This document shows positions 5,032 to 51,379 of a stretch of 64,000 nt of DNA, one piece after another. The position numbers and the translations under genes are program-made. Position 1 is the first letter of the stretch; each line of letters opens with the position of its first letter. The notes beneath the pieces were generated by a model. That model made no database searches, was not told the origin of the DNA, and saw only the letters and a program-made list of their open reading frames with translations. Where the stretch lies: NCBI GenBank assembly GCA_029959195.1, contig CP114120.1, positions 992,001-1,056,000 of the forward strand, in the 5' to 3' direction. This DNA comes from Dictyophora rubrovolvata. Taxonomy: Eukaryota; Basidiomycota; Agaricomycetes; Phallales; Phallaceae.

Positions 5032-5887
5032 GTATTCTTAGATAGGAATCAGAGAAGGTAGCCATAATATACTTTCATCCACCTCCATGTTCATGTCTAA
5101 GTGTCATGATCCAAATTCATGACATCACTAGTGATACAGATTCCTTATCCTATTTCCTTATCTTATTGTATCTAAACATTATCTTATCACAATCGCATTG
5201 CAGATGCTATGACCAGAAGTCTTGTCAGACTTCATCACCATTCCATGAAGTCCTAGACAACATCATCTTCCTAAGACTTACAGTAAGCCACAGATAGACC
5301 TTTGGTCTACATTCTAGTTCCAAACTGCGCATGAGATCATCTATGATAGTTGTAGGTCTTTGTATGTGTTTTCCCTTTGTTCTTGTTATCTCATGTTTGC
5401 CACATAGCAAACTGACCCTGCATATACTTATGATACTCATGAACTGCTATGACTTGTATACAATCTTAAGTTTGTTATTTATTTTGAACTGAGATTCAAA
5501 CCTCTAGTATACTTGTATATAAAGCCTTCTATACATCATAGCTAGACTTCTCTTTAGACTTAATATTGAACCTAGTTCGATATCTCAATATAGTCTTCCT
5601 TTTTCATTAACACTTCCGTCATTGCCAAACATTTTAAGTCTAAACCATTCGTAGTGACAATGCCGTTCTGGCATTGGATCTATTACTTCTTTCATCTCCT
5701 CTTCTTCTGCTTCCTTATCGACAATCTATTTCTACAGATCGTTCTAGACTTTCTAAAGCTTCAGCTCAATGATATTCTTCGAAGACTTGAAGGTCCCGAG
5801 TATCATCAGGACAAGTAGAGCTAATGTTCAGAGGACTGTCATGATACAACCCACTCAGGTTGAGACTACACTCTACAACAACATGGT

Positions 5888-7264: not shown

Positions 7265-7870
7265 GTGGTAATACTTGTATTATTACTAAATACGAATTCT
7301 AACGTATATACATTCGTCATCAATACCTGAGTATCAGTACTTAACACTGGGATGTGATAGACTCGTATTGTTGATACAAAATTAGCATATCATTTGTCAG
7401 AAGGTATACCTATAAAAGGATAATAAGGATAGGGAAGGAAGGAGGTGGGGGCAAGTGATTTATATCCAAGGAGTTGTACAGAATTTATAATGGGAGGGAA
7501 GGATAAGAAAGGATGAAATTAATTTTTAAATTTCAAAAAGGAAGAAAAAGAAATCATAAAAGGAAAGGAAACAAAAGATAAGGAAGTCCTTGTTTTCCAT
7601 TTTTAATTATTTCTGATTAGTCAAAGGAAGTTTTTCCTATAGCATTAACTCAGATGTCTTAAATATAGCCAAACAGAATTTCCAAAGTCGATGTAGCTTG
7701 GGAGCAGTAGAAACAGGAGTTAAAGGACAAAGAGAGGGTGATGAAGGTTCAGTGGGAGGATCAAAAGTAGAGATAGGAGGTTTTGGAGTCATGAGAATTT
7801 GTAGGATACCAGAATTGTAGAAAGGAAGGAAAAATTCAGATTCTAGTATGTGCTGATATCAATAATGGAT

Positions 7871-8305
7871 CTATAAGCAAGGAATATCGAAAATGATATG
7901 CCAGAAAGTATGTCCATGTTCCACTGTAGCCCATATCCTAGTAACCGTTTCCAATAGACCTATGTGAATCGTATACATATTCACTACAACAAACCACTCT
8001 TCATATCCTTCTAACCATAAGCATATTCCAAAGGAAACCTTCTTATCTCCTGCATCTGAATACGAGATCAGATCCGAAGCTTTATATTGACCAATAATAA
8101 TAGGGTTCAGGTATAAGGGTAATAAGGTGGAGGGATCAAGGTTGAGGTGTGCATAGGATGTATAGTAGACATAGTATTGTGTGTCCAAATCACAGAAATT
8201 GATATCAGGAGTAGAAGGGACAAAACAAAAACAATGAAAGTCATTGATAGAAGGAGTGCAAAGAGAAGGCAGAGAATGAGAAGAGCAAATTTGAAATGAG
8301 GACAT
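7871..8305 (-). pseudogene. F element ORF-A (copy F1), unknown protein
   Basis: A frame of 144 codons. The core runs from CDLDTQYYVYYTSYAHLNLD through SFGICLWLEGYEEWFVVVNM to FWHIIFDIPCL and is very close to the ORF-A of F2 and F3. I recognise no domain. The proline-rich tail seen downstream in F3 is represented by the sequence below 7870. Fossil copy of an unclassified mobile element. Confidence 0.55.
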
Positions 8306-9775
8306 ATCTTTTGTATTGATGTTTTTGGGATAATAATAAAAAAATGTTTAGATATGGGTTTTAGGTAATTGCAAAGGTGAATTCAAACTCCGAAGGACAT
8401 ATTGTGGGATTAGGGAATCTTTGGAACATTTTACTCTAATTCTTGCCAAATATAGATTTTGGTACATGACAGCACCTTTACCATATTGTGATATTTATAT
8501 AGTGTATGGTGCCTACATACTATTACATAATATTCTACATAGCGCATGTGCTAAGTCACATGTCATAGTCTAATAGACTTATACCTAAGTCCATGGTATA
8601 TATATTTACTATATCAGCAGAACTGTTACAGTCAAAGATTGACTTAATGGAAGCATATGAGCAAGTATGCATCATAGTGAAAGATGTAGTCAAAACCGTC
8701 TTTTCTACCATATATGGCACTTTTAAAAGCCATATCATACAGCAGGGAGACTGCAACACACCCTCTACATTCCAGAGGTTAATGACCCATATATTCTGAG
8801 ATTATATCAGGTGAAATATGCATACTTATATAAATAACATATTTGTATATTCAATGATAATAGAGCAATACCATAAGCATCTGGAAATCACATTCTCACA
8901 TCTGAGAAAGAAACAACTCTATCTTAGTAAGACAAAGGTAGACTTATATTCCAAGTGCATGGAATGCTTAGGCCATATCATTGATGATAATGATATCCAC
9001 CCTGATATGGATAAGATCTGTCTGTGGCAGACTCCACACATATACAATGACATCCAAAAGTTTCTAGGACTCATGTAGTACATAGTAGCATACTTTCTGG
9101 GAGTAGCTGCATACACAACCCCACTATCAGGATGCATGCATAATAACAGATAGTTTGTCTGGACCCTGGTACTGGAATGGTACTTTGAATCCATCAAATC
9201 ATTAACACTCAAGGCACCAGTATTAAAAGTCTATCAACCCTGATAGAAACGAGCTCATCTGACTCATAACCAACGATCCAAGTGTGGAGTTGGAGTGTAC
9301 TATGATCAGGGTGAAATCTAGCAGACCTGCAGACTAGCAGGGTTCATATTGAAGAAATTTACACTTGCATAGCATAACTATAGGACACATGAGCATGAGC
9401 TCATTACAGTGCTAGAAGTATTGATGAAGTGAGAGGATAAACTACTAGGTCATAAATTCACCCTAGTAACAGATAATGAAGTGCTGAAGTATTTCAAAAT
9501 GTAGCCACACATGTTGTCAAAGCAGGCGAGATGGTTTGAGTACCTTTCTCATTTCAACTATGAAACAATATACATCAAAGGCGAAACTACCACAGTTGCA
9601 GACGGACTATCAAGATACTTCAAAGATGATCTACTAGGTGAGGTACACTTACCTGAAAACTATGTCAACATAGACGTAAGATCAGACCCAAGTGGGAATC
9701 AACTACCACCTGAAAGAAGGGGTGAACTAAGAATTAGCATGATGATATACAAAAAGACTTGAAAGTGCAAGTAGA

Positions 9776-12383: not shown

Positions 12384-13366
12384 TGTTACGCCCACTTAAT
12401 GTGTACATAACCTTGCTTAACTTTCTGAAACCCTGCTCATTCCTTATTGGGCAACTCCCTGGTTTCCCAAACTTGTCCGCTGTACAGACCATATTGAATA
12501 GTCACTGAGTTGGGAGTGCACCTAATAATATGATAACACAAAGATATTTGAGGTGTGAGCAAGTCAACCTCTGCAGAGCAGGTCCAAGGTGCTGCTTGGT
12601 AGCATGCTAAATAGAAAAACAAAAACAATAACAACAACAACAACAACTGCAACAAATAAGACTATTAAGGAGTGCAATATCACAGATTGCAAGTTTATAC
12701 TCCAAGACCTTTAATTCTCAGAGTTGACCAAGGAATAGATGTGAGTGTAGACAAAGACAGGAGGACAAAACAAAAACTTAAACATAAACTTAAACAGAAA
12801 CTTAAACAGTGAGACAACTAATGTGTATGGAGCTGCTGTTACAGGTATTTACGTGCAGTATTTATATACCTTAGAACATAGATGAGGTGAGATGATCACT
12901 TGTCATTTACCATAATAACAAACAGATAAAAAGGGAGAACAAAAGAACAAAAAAAGAAAAAGGAGCATCACAAGAAAATGATAGAGGATACAATTACATG
13001 GAAACATGATGAAAATAAAGAATGAATTGCCAGAAAAGAAGAAACATAATAAAAGAAGAACAAAAAATAATCTTTTCATCACTTAGCACCATTTTACCAA
13101 AATTTAATAACCAAGGTGCCATCAGTGCCAACCTTCTCACACAACTTTGCCACAGCTTCTCCTTTTCTACCCATCATCACCTAAACTTCTTACTGATCTG
13201 TTGTCCACCACTGAGATTGCTTTGCTGTTGACCAGATAGATGGATTCTAGAGGAAGAAGAGTTGCTGTTCAATTTAGATCCTCTAGATCCTGGGTTTTGA
13301 TGTCAGTGTAGGAAGGAAGGGTTTGGGAATTATCAACAGAGAAGTTTGAGAGAGGTGTAATAGTGG
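12384..13366 (-). mobile_element. Element F-type 3' part (F8) with (AAC)n
   Basis: Read on the minus strand it shows the F 3' sequences: TATTTATA, CTGTAACAGCAGC-like motif (around 12835-12860 in reverse), AAGCAGCACCTTGGAC, and an end near TGGGCGTAACA at 12384. An AAC-rich simple repeat lies at about 12617-12652. No intact ORF. It abuts F2 head to head at 13366/13367. Confidence 0.6.
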
Positions 13367-13586
13367 TGTCGCACATCAAAATCTATATTTGGCAAAAATT
13401 AGGATAAATGTTCCAAAGATTCCCTAATCCCACAATATGGTCCCTTAGAGCTTGAATTCATCTTTGCAACTACCCAAAACCCATGTCTAAACATTTTTTG
13501 TTATCCCAAAAACATCAATACAAAAGATATGTCCTCATTCCAAATTTGCTCTTCTTGTTCCCTGCCATCCCTTCACACTCCTTCTA

Positions 13587-13970
13587 TTGATGACTCTCAT
13601 TGTTTTTGTCCCTCCTACTCCTGATATCAATCTCTGTGATTTGGACACTCAGTACTACGTCTACTTCACATCCTATGCGCACCTGAACCTTGATCCCTCC
13701 ACCTTATTACCTTTATATCCGAACCCCATTATTATCAGTCAACATAAAGCTTTGGATCTGATCTCATATTCAGATGCAGGAGATAAGAAGGTTTCTTTTG
13801 GAACACGATTATGGTTAGAAGGATATGAAGAATGGTTTGTTGTGGTGAATATGTATACAATTCACATAGGTCTACTGGACACAGTTACTAGGATATGGGC
13901 TACAGCAGAACACGGAGATGCATTCTGGCACATTGGATTTGATGTCCCTTGTTCATGGATCCATCATTGA
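13587..13970 (+). CDS. F element ORF-A (copy F2), unknown protein
   Basis: The frame continues upstream of 13587 without a clear start. Core landmarks: LCDLDTQYYVYFTSYAHLNL, SFGTRLWLEGYEEWFVVVNM, LLDTVTRIWATAEHGDAFWH, DVPCSWIHH. Aromatic-rich and acidic, with no signal peptide or transmembrane segment evident. The sequence after it encodes a Pro/Ser/Thr-rich segment (KPPISTFDPPTKPSSPS). The function is unknown to me. Neighbour ORF-B follows 350 bp downstream in the same orientation in F2 and F3. Confidence 0.5.
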   Translation: MMTLIVFVPPTPDINLCDLDTQYYVYFTSYAHLNLDPSTLLPLYPNPIIISQHKALDLISYSDAGDKKVSFGTRLWLEGYEEWFVVVNMYTIHIGLLDTVTRIWATAEHGDAFWHIGFDVPCSWIHH

Positions 13971-14320
13971 TATCAGCACACACCAGAACCTGAATTTTTC
14001 CTTCCTTTCTATGATTCAGGTATCCTGCAATTTCCCATGACTCCAAAACCTCCTATCTCCACTTTTGATCCTCCCACCAAACCTTCATCACCTTCTTTTC
14101 ATCCTATAACTCCTGTTTCTACTGTTCCCAAGCTACATTGACTTCGGAAATTCTGTTTGGCTATATTTAAGACATCTGGGATAACGCTATAGGAAGTACT
14201 TCATTTGAATAATCAGGACTAATTAAAACAGAAAACAAGGACTTCTTTATTTTTTTATTCCCCTCTTGTTTCTTTTCTTTTGGAGCCTAAATTAATTCCA
14301 TCCTTTCCTTCCCTTCCATC

Positions 14321-14857
14321 ATGAGCTCTGTGCAACCCCTTGGTTACAAATTGCTTGCCCCCACTTCCTTCCTTCCTTACCCTTTTTATCCTTTTACAGG
14401 GATAACTTTGGACAAAAGATATGTGAACTTCATATCAACAATATGGATCTATTGCATCTCTGGTGCAAACATTAAGGTAGACAGAAGCATGTTATGGCTG
14501 CATTCTCTGGTCCCCATTCAAGAATACCAGGTACCCTATGAGAAACTGGAATTCCCAGAGAATCCCAAAGTGAATGAAATAATCCCTATCAACATACTCG
14601 CTCGTTCATATGAATTGGTTTGGATTTGCCAGTTTCATCGTAGTGAACAACCTGTTTGGTGGTTCATATTCCATCAACCACTTCTTTATCACAATGAATT
14701 TCTTTTCATGGATGCTCTCACTAATGCGATTGACAATTGCCCTGTCCCTGACTACTGTCTGCTGGAGGTTGATACTTCCCAACCGCTTCCCAAGTATCTT
14801 GAATGTAGACCTCTAGTTCCATACGATTGGAGCCCTTTAACAAGAGTTCAACAATGA
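14321..14857 (+). CDS. F element ORF-B (copy F2), 178 aa, unknown
   Basis: An open frame from ATG to stop, starting MSSVQPLGYKLLAPTSFLPY. Conserved blocks: VDRSMLWLHSLVPIQEY, PYEKLEFPENPKVNEI, SYELVWICQFHRSEQPVWWF, NEFLFMDA and a C-terminal LVPYDWSPLTRVQQ. F3 keeps the same length. Diverged relatives at 20.1-20.5 kb and 15.8-16.0 kb keep PYDDLE, the YE(L/F) motif and FLF(I/M)DAP. No domain recognised. It may be spliced to ORF-A: F3 has a CTTTCAG acceptor-like site just upstream. Confidence 0.55.
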   Translation: MSSVQPLGYKLLAPTSFLPYPFYPFTGITLDKRYVNFISTIWIYCISGANIKVDRSMLWLHSLVPIQEYQVPYEKLEFPENPKVNEIIPINILARSYELVWICQFHRSEQPVWWFIFHQPLLYHNEFLFMDALTNAIDNCPVPDYCLLEVDTSQPLPKYLECRPLVPYDWSPLTRVQQ

Positions 14858-15712
14858 AATACATGGATACATATGGCAGTGGCAAACGCTCATCATTTCC
14901 AAGGATAAAGGAAGGAGATGAAGATCAAAATTTTGAGGCTATGTAGTGCTTATCGATGGAGATGTCTATTTTGGGATAATTAGTAAGAATGTATGAATTT
15001 AACCTCCTATCCTTGTTGTTCCTTCCCCTTTTAGCTCCTTTTCTTTCCTTTGTACTTGTATTGATTCTAATTCTGTTCTATTGTGTCACTCCTTTCTTTT
15101 TGTTTTGTCATCACTTCAGGTTCTCTTATTTTCTTCTTTGTAAATGTATAGTCTCGCTGACTCGTATGCTTCTCCTATTACTCATCCGTTTCTTTGTTTT
15201 CCCTTTTCTCTTTCTTTTCTTTACAAATCTGGCTCACAATTACTAATTGTGTTGCCACCCAAACTCCAAAAAACATTCTTATTGTTCTGAAAATGTATAA
15301 AATACTGCATGTAAATCCTTGTAACAGCAGCAATACCTATGTTGGTTTGACTCAAGTTTAAGTTTGTGGCTTTGTTTAGTGTTTTTGGTTTTGCCTCTTG
15401 TCTATTCTCTACACTCATGTCTTCATCTTGGAAAACTCTGAGACTGTACATTTCAGAGTATAAACTTGTGATCTGAGTTATTGTGTTTATCATACTTGCC
15501 TCACAAGTGACTTTGATCCCTAGACAATAACTGTCTTTTGGTTGTTGTTGTTTGTTTGCTGTTCCTATCACCTCCACCCTCTTTACCCTCATTTTCACGC
15601 TAAGCAGCACCTGGACTCACTCCACAGAGATTGACTACCTCACCACATTCTTTTCTTGTGTATTTTGCTAGGCATATCATTTTCCTTTTGCACGTAGTGA
15701 AGCTTACAGCGG

Positions 15713-16890
15713 TTAGAGGAGCATCTATAAAAGGAAACTAGTTAAAGCTGTAGAGTTGCCACCTGAAAACGAGTCACCAGATGGGTTGATCAGTTAGGGT
15801 GGCAGGGAGGAATCCGACCAACTTGTATGAAAAATCCATGATGTTGACTTGGGCTTGTTCATACAGAGTTAGTGTTGTCAGGAACTCCAAATCATCATAT
15901 GACAATTCAATTTCTAATGAGGGTGCAAGCATAAAGGGTAACATGGTTTTGAAGTTGATGGTGATTTCGTTACTAAGAATGTTGTAGACCCAAACATGAG
16001 CAGTGAAATTTTCATTAGGTCAAGATTGAGGAACAGGAGAAAAGGAAAATGGAGAGAAAGGGAAATGAAGAAGCAGGAGGGAATTTTGAGACATAATGGT
16101 CAGAATGAGAAGAATTTACCAAAGTACACAAAGTGCTGAACTGAAAGGGAAAAGAAAAAGGAAAGTCACTAATTTCCATTCACTATAATTATCCTAAAAT
16201 CATCCAAGGAGATTTGAACAAACACATCTGATCCTTCAAAATGATTGTATTGAAGGAGAAGGTGATCTGGGTAGAGATGGGGATGATTGGGTTGGGGTTG
16301 GTTTGGGTGATTCACTGGAAAATCAGGATATGTTGGGTTCATCAGGATAGAGATTTGCTGGTCGAAAAGGGCAGAGTTTTTTTTTGTTTGTTCATGCCTT
16401 TCATGACCACCCAACAACTTGGCACATCCAGTACCAAAAATGTAAACTCAAAGCCATCTTGTGATGCTAACCAGATTCGATAAGAATCTAAAATGGCTGA
16501 CTCTGGTGTCAAATACACATTGATAATGGTGAACCAATCTAATTTCTCCATGACATATACTTTTTCTCCAAATGAGAATCCGGGGTGAGCATAATCTGAA
16601 CTTCGACACTGACAAATATAGTGAGGTGAGGGATACAATGGTAGGTACATTTGAGAGTCAATTGTAAGGCTGGTATATTGCAAACTATAGACAGTAACAG
16701 TAGTATCAAGATCCAAATCACAAGGACAGGGGCTGGAGGGCAAATAGCAGCATGTTTCTTCCCAAAACTGTGTTTTTCTCCAAAACAAATGAGCAGAAAA
16801 ATTTCTCATAGTAAACTTATTAAATATCAATTCAAAAAATATCATATTATTTGAAAGGAATGGGGTAAATAGCATGTATTATACAAAATG
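15713..16890 (-). mobile_element. Element F, diverged subfamily copy F7
   Basis: On the minus strand, ORF-A-like coding at 16342-16875 is followed by a proline-rich segment and an ORF-B-like segment at about 15.78-15.99 kb (ELSYDDLEF, LTLYEQAQVNIMD). Nucleotide similarity to F2 is low but the protein pattern is retained. Truncated near 15.78 kb; 15713-15780 is unassigned sequence between the two F copies. Confidence 0.65.
16342..16875 (-). CDS. F element ORF-A, diverged subfamily (F7), 177 aa
   Basis: A long frame with CDLDLDTTVTVYSLQYTSLT, YLPLYPSPHYICQCRSSDY, SFGEKVYVMEKLDWFTIINV and VLDVPSCWVVMKG. Each block aligns in order with F2 ORF-A (CDLDTQYYVYFTSYAHLNL, LLPLYPNPIIIS, SFGTRLWLEGYEEWFVVVNM, FDVPCSWIHH). 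Preservation of charged and aromatic positions despite strong divergence argues the family encoded a real protein. Function unknown. Confidence 0.5.
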   Translation of the reverse strand: MLFTPFLSNNMIFFELIFNKFTMRNFSAHLFWRKTQFWEETCCYLPSSPCPCDLDLDTTVTVYSLQYTSLTIDSQMYLPLYPSPHYICQCRSSDYAHPGFSFGEKVYVMEKLDWFTIINVYLTPESAILDSYRIWLASQDGFEFTFLVLDVPSCWVVMKGMNKQKKTLPFSTSKSLS

Positions 16891-18813: not shown

Positions 18814-19363
18814 GTGGAAACATGCAATGAACTGGGACTGTCCTGGTGGTATGATGTTGCAGGCATCAAATGCTGATAAGGCAGCCATGGTGACCCACTC
18901 CATCCTAAGTGGGTATTGTAAGGCATATGCTTTTAGTAAAGACTCCCCACCATCTGATGAAGATGTGTTGAAGGCATTATACTACAATGGTGCCACCACT
19001 TGATTTATTGAAAACTGACTTGGACCTCTCCTTGTGTGCTGGCATGATAAAGCTCAGAGCAATATGATTGCTGCAACATAGCACAGCACCCAGCCCATGC
19101 TACAGTATTGTGCACCAAAAATCTTCCCAATTAGGACAAGTTCCAATTTTGGTTCAACATGGAGTTCTAATCTACCGAAAACTTCAAACGACCAAGCATT
19201 TACTCTAAAGAACAAAACAACAAAAATGACGACCTTCTCTTTTCATTACTCTTCTTCTATTTCACTTCCAGTTCCTCCTTCTCCCACCAATTCATCAGTT
19301 CCCTCTACCAGTGAATCTATTTCTCCATTTCATTATTTTCCTACCAGCTCATGACTATATGAT

Positions 19364-19627
19364 TTGGATCTCTCAACAACTTTATATATCTATACTTCCC
19401 AGTATGTGAGTCTCAGCATTGACCCGGAAACATACCTGCCGAAACACCCTTCTCCTAACATTGTCCATTCATGTAGAAGTTTAGATTTGGTTCACCCCAG
19501 TCTCATGTTTGGAGAAAAGGTCTATGTCAAAGAAAAATTAGATTGGTTTACAGTTATGAATATGTATTTGACTCCAGAACCTGCTATTCAAGACTTGTAT
19601 CGGATTTGGTTGGCTACTCAAAGATGA
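19364..19627 (+). CDS. F element ORF-A, diverged subfamily (F6)
   Basis: A frame with LYIYTSQYVSLSIDPETYLP, HPSPNIVHSCRSLDLVHPSL, MFGEKVYVKEKLDWFTVMNM and LYRIWLATQ. It is closest to the F7 ORF-A (shared EKLDWFT and YRIWLA) and more distant from F2/F3. The following sequence encodes HAKLLGNHERYK and a proline-rich stretch. No known domain. Confidence 0.5.
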   Translation: MDLSTTLYIYTSQYVSLSIDPETYLPKHPSPNIVHSCRSLDLVHPSLMFGEKVYVKEKLDWFTVMNMYLTPEPAIQDLYRIWLATQR

Positions 19628-20079
19628 ATTCAAATTTGTATTTATGGTACTAGTAACTAGACATGCCAAGTTGTTGGGTAATCATGAAAGGTATAAATAC
19701 ACAACTATAGACCTGCAAATCTTGTTCCGGATGAACCAAATCTATCCCATTTTTCTACCCATTCACCAGAACCCACCTGATCTTCCCCTTCACTTCCCAG
19801 TCCTTCTTCACCTTCCAGGCAATATTTCCAAAAGATCCAGTGAGTTTGCTCAAATCCTTTAGGACAAATCTAGGACAACAAGGTCAGTGTAGGACTCCAA
19901 TACAATCGGATCATTTTTCCCACCTTCTTGTTTCCTGGACAAATTCTTAGTGCTCTAAAAACTTAGCAAACATTTCCATTGTTATGTCAAATAATAAAGG
20001 TATCCCTCGAAACTCTGTTCCATACTTGCAACTCCCTTTCTTTCCCTTTTCATTTCGTTCTTCCCTCTGAATTGGTGAA

Positions 20080-20535
20080 TTGGTCACAACCCAAATTTCC
20101 ACACCTGACTTCATGTATACAATTCCCTCACCTCTGAAATCAATGTTGATCCCTCTAACATGCTTCCTATTACCCCCTCCTCCAGCAATGGAAATTACTG
20201 TACCATATGATGATTTAGAGCTAGGATATCCACGAGCTCTGACCTTGTATGAATACACCAACATCAATGTGATGGATGAATTGTATGAGTTCATTGGATT
20301 TCTTTCAGCAAATCATCAAGAGGAGTCAATTTGGAGATTACTCTTTCAACACCAATTTCATAGTTATACTCAATTCCTATTTATTGATGCACCCCTATCT
20401 GCCATTCCTTCCCCTCCTGATTATTCTGAAGGATATCAAGTTCTCCCTTCTTACACTGATTTCCAATCCAATCTGGTTCAAGATCTAATATTATTGAGTA
20501 CAGCTTTAGCTTTTATTATTGCGCCACAGCCATGA
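20080..20535 (+). CDS. F element ORF-B, diverged subfamily (F6)
   Basis: A 151-codon frame with ITVPYDDLELGYPRALTLYE, NVMDELYEFIGFLS, SIWRLLFQHQFHSYTQFLFI and DAPLSAIPSPPDY. These blocks match F2 ORF-B in order (PYEKLEF, NILARSYELVWICQF, VWWFIFHQPLLYHNEFLFMD, DYC). Unknown function. Confidence 0.5.
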   Translation: MVTTQISTPDFMYTIPSPLKSMLIPLTCFLLPPPPAMEITVPYDDLELGYPRALTLYEYTNINVMDELYEFIGFLSANHQEESIWRLLFQHQFHSYTQFLFIDAPLSAIPSPPDYSEGYQVLPSYTDFQSNLVQDLILLSTALAFIIAPQP

Positions 20536-20873
20536 AGAAGATGATCCCATCAACCAGAACCAGATCAGTAAGAAGTTTAGGAGGGCAACAATATGATTTT
20601 GGGTAAGAGGCAGCATGAGAAGTGCTGGATGTTGATTATGGTAAACCTGTGTTAGGAGTTCAGCTCCATCTTTTCCTGATTGATCTCTTTTGTTTTCTCT
20701 TTTTGTTCTTCCCTTTTTATTCATCATATTTCTTTTATCTTCTCTAACAAAATATGTGATTCCTTTTCTGTGTAATTATATCTCCATCATTCTCTTGTGA
20801 TTCTCCTTTTCTTGTTGTTCCTTTTTGTTCTTTCATTTTGTTTCATTTGTTATCCTGGTGAACAATGAGTGAT

Positions 20874-21325
20874 TGTCTCACTATCATGTATTCCATGATT
20901 TCCTCCCTTATCTATCCAAAAACAAGTATTTCTCTTATTCTTTTTTAAGTTCTTGCTTGCTTTAATAATCCTTTATTTGTTATGTACCTTTGTTTGTTGA
21001 GTACTCTTGGGTACTCTTATTGTTTATCTTTCAGGAACAGTCAGATGACTTAGTTCCAGGAACCCTTTTATTTTCTTATCATCTCTCTCCACTTTCCTCT
21101 CTCACTATAATTTTCCCTGATCCACTATTACTCATTCACTTCCTTAAGTAATTTCTTATCTTTCACATGACCTTTCTCTTATTAATGTTTGGAGCTGTTT
21201 GCACTTGTTCAAGAGTGTATAAATAGGGGCTCATTTCTCTTATAATCTAGCCATCTTGTAACTACTGTTGTGCACTAAAGTGCTTACCAATCAAATTGGT
21301 CTTTCTCCTCTTGTCTTTTTCTACT
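20874..21325 (+). mobile_element. LTR-H copy H3, right end truncated
   Basis: It starts TGTCTCACTATCATGTATTC and follows LTR-H (42589-43196) through the TATA motif TATAAATAGGGGC at about 21218-21230 and the CCAATCAAATTGGTC motif, then breaks off at about 21325, where a duplicated block begins. Confidence 0.75.
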
Positions 21326-22838: not shown

Positions 22839-23055
22839 TGTCATGCACCAAAATCTATATTTGGTAAATATTGGGGTAAATGTCACAAAGTTTCCCTAAT
22901 CCCACAAATATGTCCCTTGGAGCTTGAATTCACCTTTGCAACTACCCAAATCACACCAAAACATTTTTTGTTATCCCAATACAAAAGATATGTCCTCATT
23001 CCAAATTTGCTCTTCTCATTCCCTGCCATCCCTTCGCACTCCTTCCAACAGCCCA
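22839..23055 (+). mobile_element. Element F 5' fragment (F4)
   Basis: TGTCATGCACCAAAATCTAT followed by about 215 bp of the F 5' leader and first ORF-A codons, then an abrupt change of sequence. Truncated copy. Confidence 0.75.
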
Positions 23056-27872: not shown

Positions 27873-28808
27873 TGTTGTGCACCAAAATCCTACATTTGGT
27901 AAAAATTAAGGTTAAGCCCTGAACTCACAATATGTCCTTCAGAGCTTATCACCTTGCAAACCTGAAACCCTACCAAAATATGAATTCTATTATCCTAAAA
28001 ATATCTGTACAAAAAGATATGTCCACCTTCCAACTCTGTTCTCATTCATTGCTTTCTCTTCATACCCCTTCTCCTGATGATTCTCATTGTTTCCATTTTA
28101 ACCCTCCTACTCCTGATGTCAATCTCTGTGATTTGGACAATCAGTACTATGTCTATTTCACATCCTATGCACACCTCAACTCAATTCCTCCACCCTACTA
28201 CCTTTATACCCAAACCCTGTTATTATTTTTTTTTTTGTGGAGCTATAGTCAATAAAGTATTCAGACCTGGTCCAGCATTCAGAGACAGCTTGAGGAATCA
28301 TGTGCAGTGACCTTAAAACCCTGTTATTATTGGTCAACATAAAACTTCAGATCTGCAGGAGATAGGAAGGTCTCCTTTGGCAATTATGGTTAGAAGGATA
28401 TGAAGAATGGTTTGTAGTGGTAAATGGAAATGGTTACAAGGATATGGGCTACAGTGGACATGCATTCTGGCACATTCATGGATCCATCGTTGACATCAGC
28501 ACATACCAGAACCTAAATTTTTCCTTCCTTTCTATGATTCTGGTATCCCACCATATTCTATGACTCCCAAACCTCTTGTCTCCACCCTCCTACAGAACCT
28601 TCATCACCTTCTCTTCATCCTACCTGTTTCTACTGCTCCAAAGCTACATCGACTTCAGAAATTCTGTTTGGCTATATTTAAGATATCTGGACTATTGTTA
28701 TAGGAAGAACTCCTTTTGGCTAATCAGGGCTGATTAAAATGGGAAAACAAGGACTTCCTTATCTTTTATTCCTCCTCTTTTTTTGGTCTTGTTTCTTTTT
28801 TTCAGAGC
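27873..28808 (+). mobile_element. Element F, internally shortened copy F5
   Basis: It starts TGTTGTGCACCAAAATCC. Much of ORF-A is recognisable (about 28.0-28.25 kb LCDLDNQYYVYFTSYAHLN; 28.36-28.45 kb WLEGYEEWF), followed by the proline-rich tail region and the intron-like gap, then a MITE at 28809. Extra sequence lies at 28228-28315. ORF-B is absent. Fossil, more degraded than F2/F3. Confidence 0.7.
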
Positions 28809-33829: not shown

Positions 33830-34180
33830 GTAAAGTTGCTTGTTGTTATAATTTTTTTGTTGGTATACTTATGCTAATAATAATATATCTTGGGCTTGTC
33901 TTCTGTTAGCAGAGAATCCTTCTACAAGCTTTTATGCTCAATCATCTTCTCTGTTACTCCCCATTAATGCCACCTCATTTGTTTGGAGGCTTTTCCAGCC
34001 TGCCTCTGTCTCTATGCTTTCTATTTCTGTATTTTTCCTGGCATTGGATAGATCTGGATCTTTCTTCATATGTCCTTCTTCTTTATTATTTTTAACTTCT
34101 AATAATGTGTCATTTCAGCCCATAAAGCCTGTATTTGACATGTCACTGCCCAAATCTGTTTTTTCTGTATTCAGATACAT
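33830..34180. other. Unassigned sequence
   Basis: T-rich, with one short ORF (34014-34241) that runs into element F. No repeat partner or domain seen. Confidence 0.4.
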
Positions 34181-34295
34181 TGTCACGCACCAAAATCTAT
34201 ATTTGGCAAAAATTAGGGTAAATGTTCTGAAGATTCCCTAATCCCATGATATGTCCCTCGGAGCCTGAATTCACTTTTGCAACTACCCAAAACCT

Positions 34296-35009
34296 ATGTC
34301 CAAACATTTTTTTTATCTCAAAAACATTGATACAAAAGATATGTCCTCACTCCAGATTCGCTCCTCTCATTCCCTGCCGTCCCTTCACGCTCCTTCTATT
34401 GATGACTCTGATTGTTTTTGTTTTGTCCCTCCTACTCCTGATATCAATCTCTGTGATTTGGACACTCAGTACTACGTCTACTTCACATCCTATGCGCACC
34501 TGAACCTTGATCCCTCCACCTTATTACCTTTATATCCGAACCCCATTATTATCAGTCAACATAAAGCTTCAGATCTGATCTCGTATTCAGATGCGGGCGA
34601 TAAGAAGATTTCTTTTGGAACACGATTATGGTTAGAAGGATATGAAGAATGGTTTGTTGTGGTGAATATGTACATGATTCACATAGGTCTACTGGACACG
34701 GTTACTAGTATATGGGCTACTGCTGAACACGGACATGCATTCTGGCACATTGTATTCGATGTCCCTTGTTCATAGATCCGTCATCAATATCAGCACATGT
34801 CAGAACCTGAATTTTTCCTTCCTTTCTACGATTCTGGTACTCCGCAATTTCCCATGACTCCAAAACCTCCTATCTCCACCTTTGATCCTCCTACCGAACC
34901 CTCATCACCTTCTTTTCATCCTATAACTCCTGTTTCTACTGTCCCCAAGCTGCATCAACTTCAGAAATTCTGTTTGGCTATATTTAAGACATCTGGGATA
35001 ATGCTATAG
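34296..35009 (+). CDS. F element ORF-A (copy F3) with proline-rich tail
   Basis: The core (34296-34775, 159 codons) starts MSKHFFYLKNIDTKDMSSLQ and carries the family blocks DLDTQYYVYFTSYAHLNLDP, SYSDAGDKKISFGTRLWLEG and FWHIVFDVPCS. The tail (34797-35009) reads MSEPEFFLPFYDSGTPQFPM, PPISTFDPPTEPSSPSFHPI, KLHQLQKFCLAIFKTSG. The tail is shared with F1, F2 and F5, so it belongs to the same product. The true start is uncertain. Unknown function. Confidence 0.5.
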
Positions 35010-35152
35010 GAAGTACTTCATTTGAATAATCAGAACTAATTAAAATGAAAAACAAGGACTTCTTTATTTTTTTATTCCCCTCTTTTGTTGTCTCATTTCT
35101 TTTCTTTCAGAGTCTAAATTAATTCCATCCTTTCTTATCCTTCTCTTCCATC

Positions 35153-35689
35153 ATGAGCCTCATGCAACCTCTTGGCTACCAATCACTTGCCCCCACTTCC
35201 TTCCTTCCTTACCCTTTTTATCCTTTTACAGGGATAACTTTGGATGAACGATATGCCAACTTCGAATCAATAATACGGATTTATCACATCTCTAGTACAA
35301 ACATTGAGGTAGACAGAAGTACATTATGGCTGCATTCTCTAGTCCCCATTCAAGAATACCAGATACTCTACGAGAAACTGGAATTCTCAGAGAATCCAAA
35401 AGTGAACAAAATAATCCATATCAACATACTCACTCGTTCATATGAATTGGTTTGGGTTTGCCAGTTTCATCGTAGCAAACAACCTGTTTGGTGGTTCATA
35501 TTCCATCGACCACTTCTTTATCATGATGAATTTCTTTTCATGGATGCTCCCACTAATGTGATCAACAATCATCCTGCCCCTGACTACTGTTCACTAGAGG
35601 TTGATACTTCTCAACTGCTTCCCGAGTACCTTGAGTGGAGACCTTTAGTTCCGTACGATTGGAGCTCTTTAACAAGAGTTCAACAATGA
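35153..35689 (+). CDS. F element ORF-B (copy F3), 178 aa, unknown
   Basis: An open frame from ATG to stop, MSLMQPLGYQSLAPTSFLPY to LVPYDWSSLTRVQQ, collinear with F2 ORF-B over its full length without gaps. Differences are scattered substitutions, many at CpG-derived positions. There is a cysteine-histidine pair (CQFH) and a tryptophan-rich centre (QPVWWFIFHRPLLYHDEFLF). No transmembrane segment evident. Function unknown. Confidence 0.55.
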   Translation: MSLMQPLGYQSLAPTSFLPYPFYPFTGITLDERYANFESIIRIYHISSTNIEVDRSTLWLHSLVPIQEYQILYEKLEFSENPKVNKIIHINILTRSYELVWVCQFHRSKQPVWWFIFHRPLLYHDEFLFMDAPTNVINNHPAPDYCSLEVDTSQLLPEYLEWRPLVPYDWSSLTRVQQ

Positions 35690-36540
35690 AATACACGGAT
35701 ACATATGGCAGTGGTGAACGCACATTGTTTCCGAGGTTAAAGGAAGGAGATGAAAATTGAAAATCTGAGGCTGTGAAGCGCTTATTGATGGTGATGTCTA
35801 TTTTGGGAAAATTAGTAAGGATGAATAAAATAACCTCCTATTCTCATCATTTCCTTTCTTGTTTGCTCCTTTTTCTTTCCTTTTGTACTTGTATTGATTC
35901 TAAATTCATTCTTTTGTGTCATTCCTTTCTTTCTTTTTGTTTTGTCATCGCCTTGAAAATCTTTTGTTCGCTCTTTATAATAGTATAGTCTCACTGACTC
36001 ATATGCCCCTTTTTTTTTTATTTACTTGCTTTTCTCTTTGTTTCTTTTCTTCTTTATTATAAATCTGGCTCACAATTACTAATTGTGTTACCACTCAAAG
36101 TCCAAAAACATTCTTATTATTCCAAAATTTATAAATACTGCATGTAAATACCTGTAATAGCAGCAATACCTACATTGGTTTGACTCAAGTTTAAGTTTGT
36201 GGTTTTTGTTTAGTGTTTTTGGTTTTACCTCTTGTCTATCTCTACACTCATGTCTTTACCTTTGGAAAACTCTGAGACTATACATTTTGGAGTATAAACT
36301 TGTGATCTGAGTTATTGTGATTATCGTACTTTGCCTCACAAGCAACCCTTGATTTGTTAACAGTAACCGTTTTTTGGTTATTATTGTTTATTGTTGTTTC
36401 CATCACCTCCCCCCCTTTATTTTGTACTAAGCAGCACTTGGACTCGCTCCGCGGAGATTGACTACCTCACTTATTCTTTTCTTGTGTATTTTGCTAGGTG
36501 TATTATTTTTCCTTTTGCGTATAGTGAAGCTTACAACGTT

Positions 36541-36704
36541 ATCCAAATACTTATGCTTTTTTCATTTTTTGAGCAACTGGAAAAGTGAATACCTTCTTTG
36601 GTATGTTCCTCCTTCTCTTTGCTATTTTCTATTTTATCTGATATATTGTTTTGACCTATGGAGCCCTCATTTGATACATCATCACTTGGTTGTGACTTAC
36701 TCAT
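36541..36704. other. Unassigned T-rich sequence
   Basis: Short stretch between F3 and LTR-A; no feature recognised. Confidence 0.3.
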
Positions 36705-37466: not shown

Positions 37467-37960
37467 TTGTCGCATACCAAAACCTTCCTTATTTGGTAAT
37501 TGGGCTGCTTATCTAAAGTAGACATTCAATCCTCCCCTCCTAGAAAGCCGACTATCAACTTACCCAAATTCTCTCATTCAAATAATAATAAAATGTTCAA
37601 TCTTCATCTCTTATCCACATTTATAATCAGAAACCCTACTTCTTCCCCAGACACCTGAGATTCTTCCCCAGAAGATGTTATCCCTCTATTATTTCATTAT
37701 ACTCATAATAGTCCTTGTACTCATGATCTGGATATCGAGACTACTTTGTTCACTTATTATTCTCCAATACCTATCCTCTAAAATGACCTCGCAACTCTTC
37801 TCCCAGTCTACTTGCACAAGGTTCTCAGAAGTATCCATAAATGTTGAAGTTCAAATATCATACATCCCTTCTTGACATTCGGAAGAGAAGTCTACATCGA
37901 GAAGGAATTAAGATGGTTTACAGTAACTCATGTTTATTCTATGCCAGTGTTATGTGCTAT
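37467..37960 (+). mobile_element. Element F, E-type subfamily 5' part (E2)
   Basis: It starts TGTCGCATACCAAAACCTTC, the F start motif, and is close to the reverse of 50.88-51.38 kb. It encodes an ORF-A relative (about 37.6-37.95 kb: DLDIETTLFTYYSP-like, VQISYIPS) and is cut off at about 37.96 kb. Confidence 0.65.
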
Positions 37961-49173: not shown

Positions 49174-51379
49174 TGTTGTAACTATCCGAAGATAATAGCT
49201 ATATGTCATAGCTAAATATATAATTGGAAAACTACGAAGATATTTGATTGAGGTCGTCTAGTCTCCGTAGAGCGGGTCCTGATGCTGATTTTGTAAAAAG
49301 GAAGGTGGGAAATATATGATATAGTAAGTGTGTGAGCATTGATATCAAATCAAACAATAATAACAAATATAACAATCCTAAGATCTTATGTGTGTGAGGG
49401 GGATGATGAATGTGAATTCGCAATAAAATGGTATGACAATACGCCGTCAATAATACAGCGATGTTAAACTGTTTAAAGTTACTAAGGCTTCAACAACAAT
49501 ACAAATCATTAAGTTTATACTCTGAGACCTCACTCAGAGTAATCCAAAGTAATAGATGTGAGTATAGAAATAGACTAGAGACAAAACCTTGACTTGAACT
49601 TGACTTAAACTGAACTAAAACTTGAGGCAACTGTTCCAGTAGATTGCTGCTGTTACACATATTTACATGCAGTATTTATATCATTCTGAACAAAAGAAAT
49701 ATTTTTGGAATTTTTAGGAGGTTTAACAATAAGTAATTGTAACCTGTTTTCATAAAACAATAAAAGAAAAAGAAAAGAAGAAAAAAAGAGGAAGGGTTGC
49801 AATCGGAGAGAAGAATAATAAGCGATGAGGAATTTTTAGAGAGGAAATAGAAGTACAACAAATACAAGTAGTCCCAATTTAGAAGAAAAGCGATACTCTC
49901 CTTTTTACCATTTTCGCACCATACTACCACAGTAATAATTCCTCCATTTTCCTAATCTCCTACTCTTCTCTTCTTTATAAGTCTTACATCCTCTTCTTCC
50001 ATTAGTCGAGATCATCTAGTCATCGGCAAGTAAAATGTTACTAAATTAGTAGCCTCATAATGAGGGGATGGAGTTAGAGGATTGGGAGGATTAGAGTAGA
50101 AACTGAGAGGGTATGGGAATACGTCTAAAGGGACATCAAGGAAAAGGACTTGTCTGGCTAAAAGCATAGATTGTTAGAAGATGAGTCACTAAGATAGCCA
50201 TCCATTCCGATACATCTGTAGATATACTGCAAGTTTATATGAATGTCTCTTTACTCTGATATGATATTGATCATATAAACAGAGTATTAGCAGTAATCTT
50301 AAATATAGTAGAGCATATGTTAGATGTACCTGTTATGAAAAGGTAACAAGGTTTCTTCATCAACATCGATTAGTCCTTTTTGACGGAGGACATATTCTTA
50401 TATGACAGTTTTGAAGTCACCATGCAGATGATGGAATGATGACATGGTATAGGAGGCTATGAGGTCAATCATTATGATAGCAAAGAGATAGAGTAAGGCT
50501 AAAAAAACTTAGAACTTCAAAACAAAAAGAGACCAGATAATTAAAATAGAAGTTTGCCCTTATTTATTATTTTTGTTCTTTATTATATTCTAAAACTGAT
50601 TAAACTTATTCTAGGAATTCAGAACAAACATGTCGAAGTATGCGTATTATTTGTTGATATTGAGGAGGGTGTATTGTTAATTCAGAAGAAGTTGGGAATT
50701 GGAGAGGTGAATTATGATTAGATGATGAGTTTGTTGGTTCTTTGGGAAGGGGATTAGCAGGTCGATAGAATCCTAAGACTGGTTGGTGATTGCATGATGA
50801 TAGGATCCATCAACTAGGAATGTCCAGAATCATTATCATGTATTCTAACCTAACTTGTGTCATTAACTAGACACGGTACGAATTTCATAAGGCTGATTCT
50901 GGCATAGAATAAACATGAGTTACTGTAAACTATCTTAATTCCTTCTTAATGTAGACTTCTCTTCTGAATGCCAAGAAGGGATGTATGATATCTGAATTTC
51001 AACATTTATAGATACTTCTGAGAACCTTGTACAAGTAGACTGGGAGAAGAGTTGTGGGGTTAATTTGGAGGATAGGAGTCGGGGAATAATAAGTGAACAA
51101 AGTAGTCTCAATATCCAGATCATGAGTATGGGGACTATCATATATATAATGAAATATTAGAGGGATAACATCTTCTAGGGAAGAATCTTGAGTGTCTGGG
51201 GAAGAGGTAGGGTTTCTAATTGTAAATATGGATGAGAGACGAAGATTGAACATTTTATTATTATTTGAATAAGGGAATTTGGATAAGTTGATAGTCAGCT
51301 TTCTGGGAAGGGAGGATTTGAATGTCCACTTTGGATAAGCAGTCTAATCACCAAATGAGGAAGATTTTGGTATGCAACA
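49174..51379 (-). mobile_element. Element F, E-type subfamily, full-length unit
   Basis: On the minus strand it starts TGTTGCATACCAAAATCTTC (51379) and ends GATAGTTACAACA (49174), 2206 bp. It contains an ORF-A relative (about 51.25-50.75 kb), a weak ORF-B-like region (about 50.5-50.2 kb, FHHLHGDFKTVI) and the F-type 3' region with GTAACAGCAGCAATCTACTG and GACCCGCTCTACGGAG. Because D2 gives the uninterrupted site, both borders are well defined; about 7 bp of LTR-D are missing at the site and no duplication is visible. Fossil with several breaks. Confidence 0.78.
50935..51253 (-). pseudogene. F/E-type ORF-A relative
   Basis: The frame 51253-50999 starts MFNLRLSSIFTIRNPTSSPD and contains HDLDIETTLFTYYSPTPILQ and TTLLPVYLYK, aligning with the DLD...YYVYFTSYAHL...LLPLYP block of F2. 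The overlapping frame to 50935 continues with VEIQISYIPS. Function unknown. Confidence 0.4.

Follow-up and report, generated by a model that had tools for sequence, protein, structure and literature searches.

What kind of mobile DNA recurs in this stretch of the Dictyophora rubrovolvata genome, and by what chemistry does it insert? The window, which is the whole stretch of 64,000 nucleotides that we analyzed (C4:992001-1056000 of a 28.24-Mb assembly in 11 contigs), contains a unit, F3, that an earlier note had described as an unclassified mobile unit with TG/CA-type ends and two open reading frames (ORFs) of no known family. We found that this description holds, and we recognized no polymerase or transposase in the unit.

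F3 and F2 are complete copies of a recurrent element

The features of F3 and of F2, the second complete copy in the window, are as follows.

34181-36535, plus strand: F3, a complete F-family element of 2,355 bp, TGT...ACA; genome copies share both ends
34181-34197, plus strand: 5' terminal motif TGTCACGCACCAAAATC, in the form common to the F, G, and H families
34177-34180, unstranded: left target duplication of F3, ACAT (decayed ACGT), from flank reading
36536-36539, unstranded: right target duplication of F3, ACGT, from flank reading
34296-34775, plus strand: ORF-A, 159 amino acids (aa) in F3, with an early stop
35153-35689, plus strand: ORF-B of F3, 178 aa (193 to 195 aa in several copies)
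36130-36144, plus strand: promoter-like box TATAAATACTGCATG of the 3' module, 406 bp before the 3' end
36440-36459, plus strand: conserved 3' motif GGACTCGCTCCGCGGAGATT (82 genome hits; control, 0)
13367-15708, plus strand: F2, between the duplication copies GTGG (13363-13366) and GCGG (15709-15712)
14321-14857, plus strand: ORF-B of F2, 178 aa, by translation and homology

As the earlier note had stated, F3 and F2 are collinear from end to end: positions 1 to 2355 of F3 align with 13367-15708 at 86.6% over the whole length. The 3' end had been placed at TTACAACA. We found that the true end is TTACA at 36535 and that the ACGT that follows is the target duplication. No known RNA family matched 34100-36640 at E values up to 1.

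The note had also proposed searching the host genome for further copies. With F3 as query, the best 40 of 170 candidates yielded 60 match rows, and 23 of these rows, F3 and F2 included, were near end to end. Counts from the genome searches are lower bounds; the unit thus recurs as at least 23 nearly full-length F rows with common ends.

Three related families share ends, ORF order, and a 3' module

Units of this kind fall into three or more related families. We distinguished F, G, and H, which measure about 2.2 to 2.37 kb and share their ends, the order of their ORFs, and the 3' module. A literature search of freely readable journals found no description of an F, G, or H element.

The 5' motif by which the earlier note had recognized these units was barely above chance within the window, where we counted 19 sites with up to two mismatches; the expected number was 11.7, and 4 in 100 shuffles gave as many as 19. 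Genome-wide it was far above chance, with 158 exact occurrences of TGTYRYRCAYCAAAA and one of its reversed control. We retrieved 30 motif sites: an F-, G-, or H-type unit starts at 29 of them, and the other (L049) looks like a chance match. The second motif, GGACYYGCTCCRYGGAGAYT near the 3' end, had 82 genome matches, and its control had none.

Distances from the 5' motif to the 3' module were taken for 99 of the 158 motif sites (100 listed, less that of L049). For 47 of the 99, the 3' motif lay on the same strand within 12 kb, at 2,098 to 2,281 bp in 36 cases and at 2,605 to 11,871 bp in 11; none of the 47 measured units had a distance below 2,098 bp. Thus, the measured units are uniform, and there is no shortened form among the 47. 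At the remaining 52 sites, where an exact 3' motif was absent over 12 kb, shortened forms may have escaped notice. In F, G, and H, we found no inverted repeat at the termini other than TGT, with local scores lying within those of shuffled sequences.

The genome contains more than 100 whole or partial copies of F/G/H-type mobile DNA, and the group has been recently active. The scored G copies (best 40 of 101 candidates) include units 95 to 98% identical to the G query copy, and G appears to be the youngest family. In the first 56 ORF-A rows, all at least 87% identical to the G query, 21 were free of stops, and nearly all of the stops were TGA. The observed/expected ratio of CpG was 0.25 in F2, 0.52 in F3, 0.97 in the gene-rich end of the window, and 0.95 in 1.5 kb of a G copy. 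Together, the TGA stops and these ratios fit CpG decay after insertion. Across the window, CpG is depleted in the repeats and not in the gene-rich end, which points to methylation-driven decay of repeats.

Units insert into a CpG-centered 4-bp target

Reading the flanks of many copies for their termini and duplication length had been proposed in the earlier note. We read 25 insertions at both ends: 22 F units (20 fetched, plus F3 and F2), two G units, and one H unit. The 3' ends of F units were placed by the terminal AGCTTACA/GGCTTACA or by GTTACA. We found common termini: F units start with TGT, save one TGC and one TAT variant, and the three families share TGT...ACA ends. We also found that the units are flanked by a 4-bp duplication, NCGN or a decayed form of it with TG or CA at the center. 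The central pair was CG, TG, or CA on both sides in 25 of 25 insertions (background in the window, 16%), and CG was kept on at least one side in 22 (background, 1.7%). The outer bases of the duplication agreed at 46 of 50 positions, whereas 20,000 permutations averaged 15.2 and never exceeded 29. Two of the four outer-base mismatches fall in L024, where a matching duplication was not seen, and the others fall in L010 and L017. Duplication lengths of 2, 3, and 5 to 9 bp were near background in the 25 insertions.

When the two flanks were joined, they matched an uninterrupted repeat over at least 155 of 160 bases in 9 of the 25 insertions. These nine joined flanks are empty sites within other repeats. 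Nested insertions occur among them: the 3' module of a G/H-type element hosts one F copy (L022), and an F unit hosts one G copy. We also counted exact-motif 5' ends in the fetched loci, of which 43 were left after 16 duplicate loci were dropped. All 43 are preceded by N(CG/TG/CA)N, and 21 are preceded by CG. We concluded that the whole unit inserts into a CpG-centered 4-bp target, NCGN, which is then duplicated.

ORF-A and ORF-B appear to be kept by selection

The stop at 34775 shortens ORF-A of F3; read from the aligned position, the frames of L015, L016, and L027 are 237 to 238 aa. G and H encode homologues of A and B, at roughly 25 to 35% identity and in the order seen in F. Genome searches with the G proteins gave at least 151 matches for ORF-A (best 150 of 218 candidates) and at least 150 for ORF-B (best 150 of 185 candidates). 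Apart from run-on frames, the matches listed lie in frames of about the proteins' own size. Among them, no A frame was longer than 438 aa and no B frame was longer than 229 aa; the matches listed thus include no larger protein with these domains.

Between families, dN was 0.64 to 0.95 and dS was 1.85 to 2.9 or saturated. The summed dN/dS within families was 0.37 for B in F and 0.57 for A in F; a set of A frames from seven G copies and one H copy gave 0.29. The G ORF-B set alone showed little constraint (0.75). These substitution ratios suggest that selection maintains A and B in F, G, and H alike. The two proteins are probably distantly related to one another. Their comparison by hhalign was marginal (E of 0.001, probability of 21%), and a B profile matched A frames at an E of 2.5e-4 in a small set.

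The earlier note had recommended profile searches and structure prediction for both proteins, and these gave no convincing family or fold match. Pfam and NCBIfam gave no match to A or B, and PHROGs gave only a scrap at an E of 0.3. The best hit among PDB sequences was a T-cell receptor (E of 0.069), which we took as chance, and no relative of ORF-A was confirmed in viral contigs. AlphaFold models built from three to five window sequences had a pLDDT of 47 for A and 39 for B, and the best Foldseek hit for A had an E of 0.24. Because model confidence is low, the fold comparison of A carries no weight. We found neither a match of A or B to a known transposase or capsid family nor a lack of common ends among the copies, the two outcomes that the note had named as counting against its description.

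No clear enzyme partner was found

We searched the genome with the rve, RVT_1, RVT_2, and H2C2 profiles and compared H2C2 and reverse transcriptase (RT) rows by eye. Seven of the 69 rve matches had no RT within 6 kb. Among five of these seven (C9:1056057 and C1:2609432 were left out), none was a clear orphan integrase partner. The match at C4:2009388 was rejected, as its score equals that of a Copia copy, and so was the match at C3:653444, whose score equals those of Gypsy-2 copies. The rve matches beside F copies in L024 and L026 continue into a chromovirus integrase (86 to 88% identity to that of L050), and the one beside the F copy in L010 continues into a more distant relative of the chromovirus integrase (39%); we rejected all three.

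Other candidates were set aside as well. Copia is not the owner of the 3' module at C9:645058, where L059 shows a Copia inserted in an H element. That locus (C9:638800-645400) contains a Copia with an intact 1,437-aa frame inside the H element. G is not the LTR of the Copia at C1:2492583, since it interrupts the pol region, and an ORF that follows a Gypsy-1 pol was rejected as a relative of ORF-A, with a score of 1.7 bits.

We found no catalytic protein inside the element. One possible reading is that the element is autonomous and that A and B together are its transposase, a new class of CpG-directed integrase. According to this model, A and B would act as a two-protein integrase with no recognized fold, and F, G, and H would found a new superfamily of autonomous transposons whose ends are retrovirus-like. 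The three families, which have the same ends and the same target, conserve both ORFs; the measured units include no shortened derivatives; and no orphan integrase clearly partners them, all of which is as the model would have it. However, no catalytic motif was recognized in A or B, and their predicted strands are beta-rich at low confidence. Acidic residues are conserved in A (D64, D82, and D165 are invariant, and D103 is nearly so), yet they are not invariant in B. We consider an autonomous element unlikely.

Units compared with LTRs

From the TG/CA-like ends, the earlier note had suggested either an unusually long LTR with its own genes or a nonautonomous LTR-type element mobilized in trans. 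We used LTR families of this genome as controls. Chromovirus LTRs had 5-bp duplications in 5 of 15 copies, one with a mismatch, and the rest were recombined, internal, or unclear. Gypsy-1 had 5-bp duplications in three of seven copies, two with one mismatch, and the single Gypsy-2 copy had CGGAC/CGGAC. As a rule, these duplications are not CpG centered. Because the units duplicate 4 bp while the three Gypsy families give 5 bp, both LTR readings are weakened; they are weakened further by the lack of paired units around pol (see below).

In one such reading, the units are solo LTRs of 2.2 to 2.37 kb that code for two accessory proteins in U3 and carry the TATA box, R, and U5 in their last 400 to 500 bp, their interiors having been lost by LTR-LTR recombination. 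Mouse mammary tumor virus codes for an accessory protein, sag, in the U3 of its LTR, and long LTRs recombine readily. The units resemble solo LTRs in their TGT...ACA ends, their short fixed duplication, their occurrence as single-unit copies, and their TATA/leader-like right end, which recalls a U3-R-U5 layout. In the F, G, and H units examined (one each), the box TATAAATA precedes the 3' end by 406 to 508 bp, and such boxes are also present in two Gypsy LTRs that we read in this genome. This placement, as expected of an LTR, is the main point in favor of the reading.

In contrast to solo LTRs, the units carry two conserved ORFs, and we found no full-length element among the matches listed, even though there are more than 100 units and some G copies are nearly identical. 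For the best 40 of 101 G candidates, no G partner lay on the same strand within 100 kb. The ORF-A matches listed contained at least nine closer pairs of the same strand and family, 6 to 15 kb apart (10 rows, with one unit twice), including C7:2120125/2127359, C9:746682/753193, C5:72531/81436, and six more. Family was judged by identity to the G query and interiors by RT and integrase matches. None of the nine pairs had a same-strand RT or integrase match inside; one (14.6 kb) encloses an RT match and an integrase match on the other strand, and the other eight enclose none. By eye, the F units at C8:902813 and C8:910584 lie in the same orientation about 7.8 kb apart. The first of these (L020) has its own target duplication, and the RT match between the two is on the other strand. 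The check for paired units around a pol-bearing interior, which the earlier note had proposed, therefore found no same-strand RT or integrase between units among the matches listed.

Likewise, none of the 69 rve matches lay between a 5' motif and a 3' motif on the same strand (up to 9 kb to each; 99 of the 158 motif sites used). All 43 of the 5' ends follow a CpG-type target, whereas in full elements one LTR start in two would be preceded by interior sequence. Finally, the duplication is 4 bp and CpG centered, versus 5 bp in the LTR families tested here. Taken together, these data make solo LTRs a rather unlikely explanation.

A further alternative is that the units are nonautonomous passengers carried by Gypsy or Copia elements. 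The genome does contain both types, with 69 rve, 75 RVT_1, and 24 RVT_2 matches and, in some elements, long open frames. However, the chromovirus, Gypsy-1, and Gypsy-2 controls, all three of them Gypsy families, differ from the units in duplication length and, as a rule, in target, and a single unit without an LTR pair, a primer-binding site, or a polypurine tract is not a substrate for LTR replication. We regard this alternative as very improbable. Mobilization in trans as such is possible, and not by the three Gypsy families tested.

Similar flanks were seen in seven left-flank pairs and six right-flank pairs, not all of which were classified. Several are chromovirus LTRs that host units (L036, L025, and L048), and several of the right-flank pairs are chance matches of short patterns. 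Units often have chromovirus LTRs (TGTCAGGG...CCCTGACA, about 407 bp) as neighbors (L023, L030, L050, and others), and units are inserted in such LTRs in L025, in L023, and, for a G unit, at C1:889753.

A search for head-to-tail or circle junctions gave three pattern matches, with spacers of 11, 9, and 8 bases. Among the matches listed, no ORF-A row lies just upstream on that strand, so we did not count the three as junctions. In the G 3' module, at about 1084 to 1104 of L052, the TATA box is followed by a TACTAAC-like branch site and an AG acceptor, an arrangement that would suit a spliced leader.

Related pieces and neighboring repeats

The earlier note had listed further pieces of the unit in the window. 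We found that they are indeed related and lie in both orientations, and that they belong to several elements (F, G-like, and H-like) rather than to one.

7351-8471, minus strand: F copy, 5' 1.1 kb only, by alignment to F, with an extra 60-bp scrap at 5032-5091
12384-13366, minus strand: probable 3' portion of a G-like element that predates F2 and was split by it, from joined flanks (outer limit from the earlier note)
15709-16890, minus strand: probable 5' part of that F2-split G-like element, with ORF-A at 16342-16875 (outer limit from the earlier note)
19106-20873, plus strand: G-like element, 3' truncated; a Gypsy LTR piece starts at 20884
22839-23045, plus strand: F 5' fragment, by alignment to F
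27873-28807, plus strand: F-like fragment, 5' part, by alignment to F
37468-37934, plus strand: H-family 5' fragment, by alignment to H
49177-51379, minus strand: H-family element, near complete, without a clear duplication

The claim that all of the pieces start with the 5' motif failed. F2 probably inserted into an older minus-strand G-like element, of which 12384-13366 and 15713-16890 would be the two halves, and because of this split not every piece begins with the motif. When the flanks of F2 are joined, the sequence to either side of the junction aligns with G in a single register; the alignments are short and weak (E of 1e-4 to 5e-4).

A 600-bp LTR of a Gypsy family (TGTCATGTATT...CTCACA) occurs in the window at 21266, 38176, and 42948 and also in L060. 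Soon after its TATA box it contains TGTTGTGCACYAAAGTRC, which is nearly the F 5' end motif and is not preceded by NCGN. The likeness may be due to chance. Elsewhere, at C1:875538-900266 (L033 to L040), four motif sites are mirrored about one center, and the mirrored pieces match at 99.6 to 100%, which points to a large inverted duplication, some 24.7 kb in size and nearly perfect.

Discussion

With about even confidence, we favor the explanation that F3 is a stand-alone element inserted by integrase-like strand transfer, that A and B are its own mobility proteins, and that the enzyme acts in trans or lies within A and B. From the TG...CA-type ends together with the short fixed duplication, we infer a 4-bp staggered strand transfer, which a DDE enzyme of the retroviral-integrase or Ginger type would make. 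A and B would serve the element's own movement, for example, by recognizing the target or the ends, binding DNA, or assembling a complex, and the catalytic enzyme would be supplied in trans or be hidden in A and B. The putative TATA-type promoter and leader-like module at the right end could drive A and B only in a joined form of the element, such as a circle, or when another unit lies downstream.

The units differ from known classes of DNA transposons. Nonautonomous DNA transposons and miniature inverted-repeat transposable elements (MITEs) occur in many copies without a recognizable transposase, as do the units. MITEs are short and noncoding and have inverted repeats; in contrast, the units lack inverted repeats, are of uniform measured length, and carry two ORFs that appear to be under selection. 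Helitrons make no target duplication and encode a Rep/helicase, whereas the units have a 4-bp duplication and no Rep/helicase domain in A or B.

The closest likeness in insertion is to Ginger1. According to its published description, Ginger1 makes 4-bp duplications of CCGG or CCGT/ACGG and has TGTNR termini, terminal inverted repeats of 40 to 270 bp, and a Gypsy-like integrase (PMC2836005). The units share the 4-bp duplication with CG in the middle, and their termini at both ends, TGTCG/TGTCA and TGTAA (one F, G, and H unit each), fit TGTNR. In contrast, their target is the broader NCGN (also ACGT, GCGG, TCGC, CCGC, ACGA, and CCGA), they lack inverted repeats of 40 to 270 bp, and, instead of a Gypsy-like integrase, they encode two proteins without a match in Pfam. 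Because of these differences from Ginger1 as described there, we did not file F, G, and H as Ginger elements, and the resemblance would bear only on the chemistry of insertion.

If A and B are catalytic, they would represent a new class of transposase; if the units are LTRs, the LTR element to which they belong would have conserved genes in its U3. With its many copies, its recent activity, two proteins that match no family searched, and a target, CpG, that is the usual site of DNA methylation, the element offers a test case for how mobile DNA can read methylatable sequence.
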